From the IMG/VR virus record IMGVR_UViG_3300037502_001990, positions 1-29,846 of that record: a DNA stretch of 29,846 nucleotides; one strand, given 5' to 3'. The notes below the pieces were generated by a model that was given only the letters and a program-made list of their open reading frames with translations, ran no database searches and was not told the DNA's origin. Within the stretch, counting starts at the first letter, position 1. Each line of letters opens with the position of its first letter. Shown here piece by piece: positions 4,761-25,698 of this stretch. The translations under genes were made by a program, and so were the position numbers. Origin of the DNA: a virus.

Positions 4761-4852
4761 CACGAAACCGCCCATAGGACGAGGACCACCACCAGCAGCG
4801 CGATGATGCCCACGCCCATGACGAACGCGGCAGCGTCCACGGCCTTACGCAT
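4760..4852 (-). CDS. 30-aa single-pass membrane peptide
   Basis: A 30-codon reading frame starts within the last codons of the methyltransferase (8-nt overlap) after a GGGGGTG stretch, and its stop shares a base with the next start. The product begins MRKAVDAAAF and continues with an almost uninterrupted Val/Leu/Ile/Gly stretch to VLVLWAVS. That is one transmembrane helix with a positively charged N-terminus, so an N-in orientation is likely. It is the second such peptide within 700 nt. Function is unknown; holin-like or membrane-stress roles are possible. Confidence 0.6.
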   Translation of the reverse strand: MRKAVDAAAFVMGVGIIALLVVVLVLWAVS

Positions 4853-5759
4853 CACGCACCCCCATCATGCGCGCCAACTGGTGCCCAACGTATTCGGCCA
4901 CCTGGGGGACCACGGCGTTACCTAGCGCGCGCAATCTGTCCACCCGGTTGGGAACCCCATCAGCCACTCTACCCACGTCGGGTTCAGGCGGCCATTGTCT
5001 GCGCTCACGACTTGCGAGAGATAGACCTGTTTCCCTCGTTGCATCCTGCGTTGCGTTACCCCGCTGGACAAGTTGCCGCGATCCCGAACGTCGTTCGCTT
5101 GCGGCGTAGGCCATAGCCTCGCTGTCTCGGCTGCCACATGGTCCGGCAGCGTCGGCGTGCCCTTTGAGCCCGGCCGGTTGCGCCAACTCGCCGCCGACAG
5201 TCCTATGTGATCGCGGGCCGCTGGTGTCCTCCATAGGGTTGGGCCACCCGTTGATGTCCCCGCCCGTGGCAACTTCGTATGGTGCAGCGATAACGAAAAC
5301 GCGGTCGCGGCGGTGAGGTGCGCCGACGGCTGCCGCCGGTATGCAATCCCATTCCGCGTCATACCCGCACGCGGCCAGTCCACCGATGACGTCATCGAAT
5401 CCGGCAGTAAAGAGACCTGGGACGTTCTCCAGCAACACGCCTCGGGGTCGTAGTGCGCGAATGATGTTTTCAACATGCGGCCACAGCCACCTCTCGTCGT
5501 CTTGTGCATTGCGCCGCCCGGCGTAACTGACCGGCTGGCATGGGAAACCGGCGGTAAGCACGTCCACGCGCTCCACATCGTCCGGCAGGTTCGTAGCGTC
5601 GTCGTAAATGGGCACGCCCGGCCAATGCTTCGCCAGCACGCGCTGGCAATACTCGTCACGCTCGCACATCCATGCGACGCGGAACCCAGCGCGCTCCAAG
5701 CCCAGATCTATGCCCCCGATGCCGGTGAACAGGGAACCGACGCTGGGGCTAGTCAGCAT
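4845..5759 (-). CDS. C5 cytosine-specific DNA methyltransferase
   Basis: A 304-aa DNA (cytosine-5-)-methyltransferase. It has motif I SLFTGIGGIDLGLERAG, the catalytic GFPCQPVS with C75 (motif IV), LLENVPG (motif VI, E112), APHRRDRVF (motif VIII) and ALGNAVVPQVAEYVG (motif X). Residues about 165-270 form the target-recognition region. The ATG at 5759 follows a GTG one codon earlier and overlaps the upstream gene. The phage probably uses it to protect its DNA from host restriction. Oddly, an overlapping frame from about 5240 to 4922 also reads like the C-terminal part of a related methyltransferase class (see findings). Confidence 0.95.
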   Translation of the reverse strand: MLTSPSVGSLFTGIGGIDLGLERAGFRVAWMCERDEYCQRVLAKHWPGVPIYDDATNLPDDVERVDVLTAGFPCQPVSYAGRRNAQDDERWLWPHVENIIRALRPRGVLLENVPGLFTAGFDDVIGGLAACGYDAEWDCIPAAAVGAPHRRDRVFVIAAPYEVATGGDINGWPNPMEDTSGPRSHRTVGGELAQPAGLKGHADAAGPCGSRDSEAMAYAASERRSGSRQLVQRGNATQDATRETGLSLASRERRQWPPEPDVGRVADGVPNRVDRLRALGNAVVPQVAEYVGHQLARMMGVRDA

Positions 5760-6168
5760 CACGCGGCACGATGGTCAGGGACGGCGTGGGCTGCGGCTCG
5801 TACACGATGGCCTCAAAGGGGACACCGTGCGCGGCAAGCGCGGCGGCGTTGGCCCGCAGGTCGGACACCTTCGGCCGCGTCCACGTCGTCACCTGTTCGG
5901 TGAGGCCCAGCCCGGCGATGGCCTCGCGGTACTTTTCCAGCCCGTCCTCGCGCACGCGCATGGATGGCCGACGCGCAGGCGGGGCCATGACGACCCAGCC
6001 CAGCGGCCCGGCGTCCACGGCCTCGCCCATTGTCATGGTGGCTACCAGGCTGCCGCGCAGTTCATCCGCGCGCCGTGTCAGTCGGGCCAGTTCGTCCTCG
6101 GCCTCCAGCCGCGCCAGTTCCACCTGTGCGAACTCGCGCGCCATACGCTCGCGGTCGTCGCTACTCAT
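5749..6168 (-). CDS. hypothetical protein with N-terminal coiled coil
   Basis: A 139-aa protein. Residues 1-40 are a charged coiled coil (MAREFAQVELARLEAEDELARLTRRADELR). Then follows a GPLGWVVMAP strand region and a C-terminal half ending VPFEAIVYEPQPTPSLTIVPRD. The overall shape, a coiled coil followed by a small domain ending in a proline-rich strand, resembles Gp157-type or Mu Gam-like early phage proteins, but I cannot assign a family. The start at 6168 is fixed by GGAGGAACGC directly upstream. A much longer open frame upstream is low-complexity and is rejected. It overlaps the methyltransferase start. Confidence 0.7.
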   Translation of the reverse strand: MSSDDRERMAREFAQVELARLEAEDELARLTRRADELRGSLVATMTMGEAVDAGPLGWVVMAPPARRPSMRVREDGLEKYREAIAGLGLTEQVTTWTRPKVSDLRANAAALAAHGVPFEAIVYEPQPTPSLTIVPRDAD

Positions 6169-24701: not shown

Positions 24702-24922
24702 CCGTCCACCACCTGGATGAACGCGACGCCCTCCACGGGAATAAGGGCGTAGCCCTCCAGGTCATGCGAGCGCTCGGCCGATTCGATCAGCGACGCCGCC
24801 TCCAGCCGGTAGTGCTTGCCGCCCACGCGCCCCATGAATACGCCTTCCAGGGACGGGGCATCGCCGCGCATGTGGATGCGGGCAAGGCGTTGCCGTCGCC
24901 ACGGCCACCAGCGCCACATCAC
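24698..24922 (-). CDS. small protein upstream of portal
   Basis: A 74-aa protein with a Trp/Arg-rich start (MWRWWPWRRQRLARI), then MRGDAPSLEGVFMGRVGGKHYRLEAASLIES and strands to the C-terminus. Small proteins with the SLEGVLxGRxxGHYxL-type pattern are frequent next to portal genes of actinobacterial phages; their role is not known to me. It starts with a GTG in a GTGA overlap with the glycosyltransferase-like gene. Confidence 0.7.
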   Translation of the reverse strand: MMWRWWPWRRQRLARIHMRGDAPSLEGVFMGRVGGKHYRLEAASLIESAERSHDLEGYALIPVEGVAFIQVVDG

Positions 24923-25698
24923 CGCGCCGCCTTCACGATGCTACGTCCGTCCTCGTCCGTGGTGGTCAGCCGTTCGATTCCTAGCGCCTCGCGCCGCTTG
25001 TAATACTCCCGCGCCGCCTCCCGTCGGTACAGGTCGCGCCACGCTGAACGATGCTCCACCGTGACATCGTGGAACATTACACCATCCTGCGGCGCTACAT
25101 GGGGCGGCCCCCATAGGTAGGTATACGTTCCGTCCTCCTGCACACCGGCATAGACGTAGTGCAGGCCCACGACCTGCATGCGGTCCAGGCACCGGAATAG
25201 CATCCGCATGGGCGCGGTGGTGGATGGCGGCAGGTTCATGGCGCGGGCTACGTCCGGCGCATCGGTGAGGTAATCCGACCGCGACCACAGCCCGACCTCC
25301 ACCACGTCGCCCGGCACGTCGGCCAGGCGCTCGCGCAGGTCGCCGGGGTACTCGGCCAGCACGCAATCCGCATCGAATACCCAAAGCCAATCGTGGTGCG
25401 CGCGCGCGTGGGCGTTGGCCAGCCGGAACATGAAATCGCGCTTTGCCACCTCGTCCCCCAGGAACGGCGCGGCCGGGCGGTGAATGGTGACCGACAGCCC
25501 CAGCGCGTTGGCCGTTGCCATCACGGTTTCCGCCTGCACGCGCTCCGATGATGCGCGGGCGTCGGGGTAGTGCGCGTACGCACCATCCACCGCGATAAGC
25601 CCATCCAGCGCGGGCGCGAATGATGCGACCGCCTCCGCTAGCCATGAAGGGGATTCGTCATACCACGACAGCAGCCCCCAAACCTTCGGCGTTTCCAT
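24919..25698 (-). CDS. glycosyltransferase-like protein (GT-A type)
   Basis: A 259-aa protein. It opens KVWGLLSWYDESPSWLAEAVASFAPALDGLIAVDGAY, the typical first strand and helix of a family-2-like glycosyltransferase. A conserved DWLWVFDADC gives a DxD metal site. A VGLHYVYAGVQEDG segment and a basic C-terminal helix follow. It could glycosylate capsid or tail proteins, or the host surface. The ATG follows GGAAGGAACGC. It is the first minus gene left of cassette B and is directly upstream of the portal-associated genes. Confidence 0.7.
   Translation of the reverse strand: METPKVWGLLSWYDESPSWLAEAVASFAPALDGLIAVDGAYAHYPDARASSERVQAETVMATANALGLSVTIHRPAAPFLGDEVAKRDFMFRLANAHARAHHDWLWVFDADCVLAEYPGDLRERLADVPGDVVEVGLWSRSDYLTDAPDVARAMNLPPSTTAPMRMLFRCLDRMQVVGLHYVYAGVQEDGTYTYLWGPPHVAPQDGVMFHDVTVEHRSAWRDLYRREAAREYYKRREALGIERLTTTDEDGRSIVKAAR

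Follow-up and report, generated by a model that had tools for sequence, protein, structure and literature searches.

A gene nested in the +1 frame of a phage cytosine-5 DNA methyltransferase gene probably encodes a second subunit of the enzyme

This study concerns a DNA methyltransferase locus in a viral sequence of 29,846 nucleotides (IMG/VR record IMGVR_UViG_3300037502_001990; hereafter, the window), a fragment of a tailed phage with terminase, portal, head and tail genes. On its minus strand, the gene for the large subunit of a cytosine-5 (m5C) DNA methyltransferase (alpha, 305 aa, 4845..5762) contains in its +1 frame a second gene (beta, most likely 184 aa, 4922..5476). We consider it likely that this one stretch of DNA encodes a two-subunit m5C methyltransferase, with beta translated from an internal start and both polypeptides assembling into one enzyme. 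Beta is best read as the subunit that carries the target-recognition domain (TRD) and motif IX.

Conservation of two overlapping frames

Alpha, which may start at GTG 5762 or ATG 5759, matches PF00145 (E=1.6e-41) and phrog_363 (E=3.8e-77). The +1 frame runs without a stop from 5659 to 4922 (245 codons), and its residues 40-243 (204 residues) match the phage family phrog_1008, annotated as 'DNA methyltransferase' (E=1.6e-27), while no convincing match was obtained with Pfam or NCBIfam models. Beta was delimited using this match together with stop depletion, column constraint and start candidates. The original prediction, made from the sequence alone, was that the C-terminus could be read as methyltransferase in two overlapping frames over 5240-4922. 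Both frames read as it described, both have homologues in phage methyltransferase families, and the resemblance persists in alignments; the overlap is real, but the extent given was too narrow, as beta starts near 5476. At the DNA level, the region where beta motif IX meets alpha motif X shares 81% identity over 95 bases with that of a Lacticaseibacillus phage.

Selection on the +1 frame was evaluated in 252 non-redundant viral loci (less than 80% identity, GC content of 38-72%; the sequences are still related), and the expectation was computed within each gene by shuffling alpha codons among synonymous positions. Between alpha alignment positions 81 and 260, only 4 stops were observed in the +1 frame against approximately 747 expected, whereas the +2 frame contained 1693 against 1701 expected, indicating that the predicted resemblance did not arise by chance. 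Outside beta, +1 stops were not depleted (609 against 549 expected at positions 1-60, and 413 against 329 from position 271 onward). The departure of the +1 columns from the shuffles was 0.10-0.16 bits at positions below 91 or above 280, and reached 1.24 bits (ten-position means) within positions 91-272. Moreover, the wobble base is nearly fixed at the motif, where Gly is encoded by GGT in 99% of the cases, Ala by GCT in 97% and Pro by CCC in 98%, against 14%, 18% and 32%, respectively, elsewhere in the same genes. The reverse shuffle, in which beta was kept, predicted 1160 stops in alpha and none was seen, although an open alpha was a criterion for selecting the loci. These results show that beta is a conserved protein under its own selection, besides the conserved alpha.

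Motifs of the two polypeptides and the probable identity of beta

The catalytic core of the PF00145 m5C methyltransferases is present in alpha, all on the minus strand: motif I (SLFTGIGG, 5712..5735), motif IV with PCQ and the catalytic Cys (GFPCQPVS, 5526..5549, supported also by invariant columns), motif VI (ENV, 5421..5429) and the motif VIII region (HRRDRVFVIA, 5286..5315). These were assigned from the sequence and the alignment with M.HhaI, which reaches through motif VIII only (E=1.7e-31). Motif X (LRALGNAVVPQ, 4902..4934, minus strand) aligned with motif X of relatives in which all parts are fused in one chain. Nothing similar to motif IX was found in the frame of alpha, which comprises motifs I-VIII and X. 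Motif IX is present solely in beta (LNPTWVEWLMGFPTGWTD, 4934..4987, minus strand), as indicated by an alignment of 85 betas, the fused relatives and a IX-X profile; its end base is the first base of alpha motif X, and the m5C motif set is complete only when both proteins are counted. Beta also contains two TP modules on the same strand, LWRTPAARD (5210..5236), recognised in the sequence and in the alignment of the 85 betas, and LWPTPQAND (5090..5116), whose PTP columns are nearly invariant in that alignment.

Mycobacterium phage Aggie (gp53) and the loci L425 and L497 each have a single chain that proceeds through motifs I-VIII, TP modules and a motif IX of the xL..xFxEWMM type to the GNxV of motif X. 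In the actinophages Xena, PhluffyCoco and Vash, the segment after motif VIII constitutes a second gene. Beta matched the C-termini of these fused and split relatives with a probability of 97.6% (E=3.5e-12). For instance, L419 has RRLNPDFPEWMMGFPTGWTACGLSRAQRLKAIGNSVQPQ in one chain, where the window has LNPTWVEWLMGFPTGWTD in beta and LRALGNAVVPQ in alpha. Since the parts follow the order VIII-TRD-IX-X in the fused and split relatives, the most plausible role of beta is that of a subunit for target recognition that also carries motif IX; the TRD is tentatively placed in beta because the TP region adjoins motif IX in these relatives. Among the options considered in the original prediction, an overprinted target-recognition region was right in essence, given that the recognition modules and motif IX are encoded in the +1 frame and, in the fused relatives, lie in frame between motifs VIII and X. 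The idea that the frames are alternative classes of C-terminus in a single protein has to be replaced by that of two co-conserved proteins, one with motifs I-VIII and X and the other, nested, with the TRD and motif IX. When the IX-X profile was compared with the PDB, DRM-type m5C methyltransferases were aligned over both motifs in six of the seven matches (E 0.012-0.057).

Several observations weigh against this assignment. The top match of the IX-X profile (E=0.001) was an unrelated polyprotein, which we took as a chance match. The AlphaFold model of beta alone had low confidence (predicted local distance difference test of 65), which would be expected of a protein that depends on a partner, but is no proof of this. 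The TP region of a fused relative was likewise poorly modelled, so neither prediction gives structural support to a recognition role. Additionally, the TRD of M.EcoHK31I, a two-polypeptide enzyme, is predicted in its large subunit (PMC3404938). When profiles of beta and of the split C-termini were searched against the PDB, only chance matches were obtained. A fold search with the fused L425 protein returned M.HhaI and M.HaeIII, but the best alignments were limited to approximately 165 columns and hence confirm the core alone.

In single-chain enzymes, motif IX connects the recognition domain with the catalytic domain. In M.EcoHK31I, the beta gene is nested within alpha in another frame, and the subunits have 309 and 176 aa; M.EaeI is similar to it. 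Most characterised C5-methyltransferases are monomers, M.AquI and M.EcoHK31I being exceptions (PMC3404938). M.EcoHK31I (YGGCCR) resembles the window enzyme in having two polypeptides with the same distribution of motifs, I-VIII and X in the large subunit and IX in the small one (PMC3404938). It differs in belonging to a restriction-modification system, whereas the window enzyme is apparently an orphan phage enzyme (no restriction enzyme was recognised among the window genes scanned), and in the location of the TRD, which in the window would be in the small subunit; this comparison is by description only. M.AquI (CYCGRG) is also a naturally split m5C methyltransferase, but its small subunit includes part of the TRD, IX and X (PMC3404938), whereas motif X of the window is in alpha. 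A small subunit of the AquI type, with TRD, IX and X, is absent in the window and is encoded by L420 and by the split genes of the actinophages; Xena, Vash, PhluffyCoco and Micromonospora relatives resemble this layout. With respect to the single-chain M.HhaI and M.HaeIII, alpha is like M.HhaI through motif VIII, but the TRD and motif IX are outside its frame.

In the mechanism that we propose, alpha (frame 0) would be responsible for binding S-adenosylmethionine and for catalysis (motifs I-VIII) and would also provide motif X, whereas beta, translated separately from a start in the +1 frame, would contribute the TP modules as target-recognition region and motif IX. We infer that the two polypeptides form a heterodimer, both subunits being needed, in which beta would read the DNA through the TP modules and complete the fold through motif IX. 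The enzyme most likely would modify phage DNA against host restriction.

A different view is that alpha is a complete methyltransferase and that beta has a separate role, for example, as a regulator or an anti-defence protein. The C-terminal frame of alpha is likewise conserved (VGRVADGVPNRVDR), and the TRD predicted for the large subunit of M.EcoHK31I (PMC3404938) would fit this idea. Nevertheless, we consider it unlikely: alpha has no motif IX, the elements of beta occur between motifs VIII and X in single-chain relatives, and the title of Lee 1995 (cited in PMC3404938) states that M.EcoHK31I requires two proteins.

Internal start of the nested gene

A Shine-Dalgarno (SD) sequence suitably spaced from a start codon in the beta frame was found in 98 of the 252 loci, against approximately 15 in the shuffles; in a control frame, the count was 12 against 17 expected. 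The SD-to-start spacing peaked at 6-8 nt. Similarly, such sites were detected in 20 of 56 loci of a Kagunavirus-like subfamily (2.1 expected) and in 29 of 50 bacterial genomes (2.4 expected). These data show that many relatives have separate start sites for beta. The SD-supported starts concentrate at alpha alignment positions 48-60 and 81-84, and a single conserved start codon for beta was sought across the loci but not found.

For the window, ATG 5476 is kept in the closest relatives examined, each of which has a +1 stop further upstream, and the onset of the column constraint coincides with this codon. These three features make it the most likely start of beta, which we propose would yield a protein of 184 aa; other ATG codons of the beta frame are located at 5509 and 5578. 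A possible SD sequence, GAGAGGTGG (5487..5495, minus strand), is present before ATG 5476. It is kept in L089 and L090, and L091 has GAAAGGTGG; this is a single site, outside the shuffle test. The lack of a strong SD at the canonical spacing (the distance is 10 nt) is a further point against the reading of beta as a separately translated subunit in the window, and owing to this spacing the start at 5476 remains a proposal.

As an alternative, programmed ribosomal frameshifting could join the N-terminus of alpha to the C-terminus of beta and produce a second form of the enzyme, as the original prediction had also contemplated. The failure to find one conserved start codon would be explained in this way, as would the onset of +1 stop depletion near position 58, before the constrained region is reached. 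This alternative is disfavoured, and we regard it as very unlikely, because beta-frame start codons preceded by a good SD occur at many loci, far above chance; positions 61-90, where a fixed frameshift site was sought, do not show the extra codon constraint that would mark one; and a shift before the onset of beta constraint would cost motifs VI-VIII, the fusion being also without motif X. That the +1 frame is untranslated, open through base composition and similar to a methyltransferase because the alpha protein imposes it, is scarcely credible: the window has 65-73% GC, where spurious long frames are common, and other overlapping frames exist nearby, but the stop depletion, constraint and SD enrichment hold in loci of 38-72% GC and are absent outside beta and in the +2 frame, and wobble bases are fixed where alpha leaves freedom. 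We read the locus as a case of overprinting, as opposed to alternative C-termini and, probably, to frameshifting; it may have arisen either through de novo overprinting or through a pair of compensating shifts.

Distribution among relatives and variant layouts

An intact methyltransferase frame with an open +1 frame and the same motifs was observed in Lacticaseibacillus, Paenibacillus, Mycobacterium, Acinetobacter and environmental phages. Of 323 viral loci, 310 have the beta motif in the +1 frame together with a single alpha frame that stays open through motif X. Most of these loci came from four scans of viral contigs, with two alpha and two beta queries, and were the best matches of each scan, so the frequencies apply to relatives of this enzyme and not to all m5C methyltransferases. 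The nested arrangement was present in 155 of the 159 loci from the alpha-only scans and in 147 of the 150 loci from the beta-only scans that carry the catalytic domain. It was also found in 66 of 72 loci of the second subfamily, with the Kagunavirus-like alpha, where the catalytic part was located, and in bacterial genomes and prophages of many phyla. The number of TP modules per beta varies, mostly from 1 to 4 with a maximum of 6, and may set the recognition of several targets. Both frames are annotated in the record of Paenibacillus phage Tadhana (TADHANA_54 and _55), and the beta frame is an annotated gene in Acidovorax phage Alfacinha3 and Synechococcus phage Ssp-JY39. Four loci (L155, L161, L463 and L483) were initially scored as devoid of beta; direct reading revealed that it is present with a diverged motif IX.

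M.EcoHK31I is a precedent for this kind of arrangement, but its scale and depth of conservation seem unreported: no report of it in phages was found in the literature on overlapping methyltransferase genes, most subscription papers being outside the search. The apparent novelty is a nested subunit gene distributed across phages, prophages and bacteria of many phyla, in nested, TRD-only nested, split and fused versions. It is an evenly balanced possibility that these form a phage and prophage m5C methyltransferase radiation, spanning many phyla, in which the TRD part resides in a nested +1 gene of approximately 180-220 codons and modules have moved between frames and polypeptides, giving nested TRD and IX, nested TRD only, split TRD, IX and X, and fused layouts. 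In that event, few overlapping gene pairs of prokaryotic viruses would be as widespread or as deeply conserved, and this one would have been overlooked because annotation retains one frame. In bacteria and phages, there are few documented cases of long nested genes in which selection can be measured in both frames. The non-redundant loci with such a gene, more than 350 here, would give real statistical power to measurements of how overlapping genes originate and are maintained. In practical terms, a codon-optimised alpha would lose beta and the enzyme could be inactive, many proteins that databases call 'DNA methyltransferase' would be recognition subunits without catalytic motifs, and the fused, split and nested forms would provide a natural series for engineering split methyltransferases.

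An actinobacterial form (L428, L439, L442, L445, L477, L478, L419 and L465) has motif IX in the frame of alpha; its +1 frame retains only the N-terminal part and the TP modules and stops just before motif IX, that is, the handover point between the frames shifts. In L306 (2522-3300), alpha has its stop after motif VIII, and the TRD, IX and X are all encoded in the +1 frame; this represents either a transition to the AquI-like arrangement or an insertion or deletion. In Mycobacterium phage Seabastian (L008, 1498-2257), a one-base shift with respect to SG4 disrupts alpha and beta at one point; the same shift occurs in Llama, OfUltron, Ochi17 and others, and the annotation lists two DNA methylases. 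A Paenibacillus bovis plasmid (L512, 2501-3715) has an alpha match of 46.5% identity in a record with only two short hypothetical proteins, the methyltransferase being uncalled.

The ShiLan domain is a hidden HNH endonuclease in phage methylases (PMC11855218). Like beta, it is encoded by an out-of-frame gene within a phage methylase gene (PMC11855218), but it is a mobile insertion with a patchy distribution, whereas beta, the proposed subunit, is encoded across sequence that is conserved in the enzyme itself. Insertions resembling HNH homing endonucleases were observed in the alpha gene of L140 (about 1290-2046) and L395, 3' of beta motif IX; that of L140 shares the +1 frame with beta, begins directly after the beta stop and is similar to the hidden HNH elements of PMC11855218. 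Elsewhere in the window, two long frames overlap on the minus strand at 24919-25698 and 24941-25645, in high-GC DNA.
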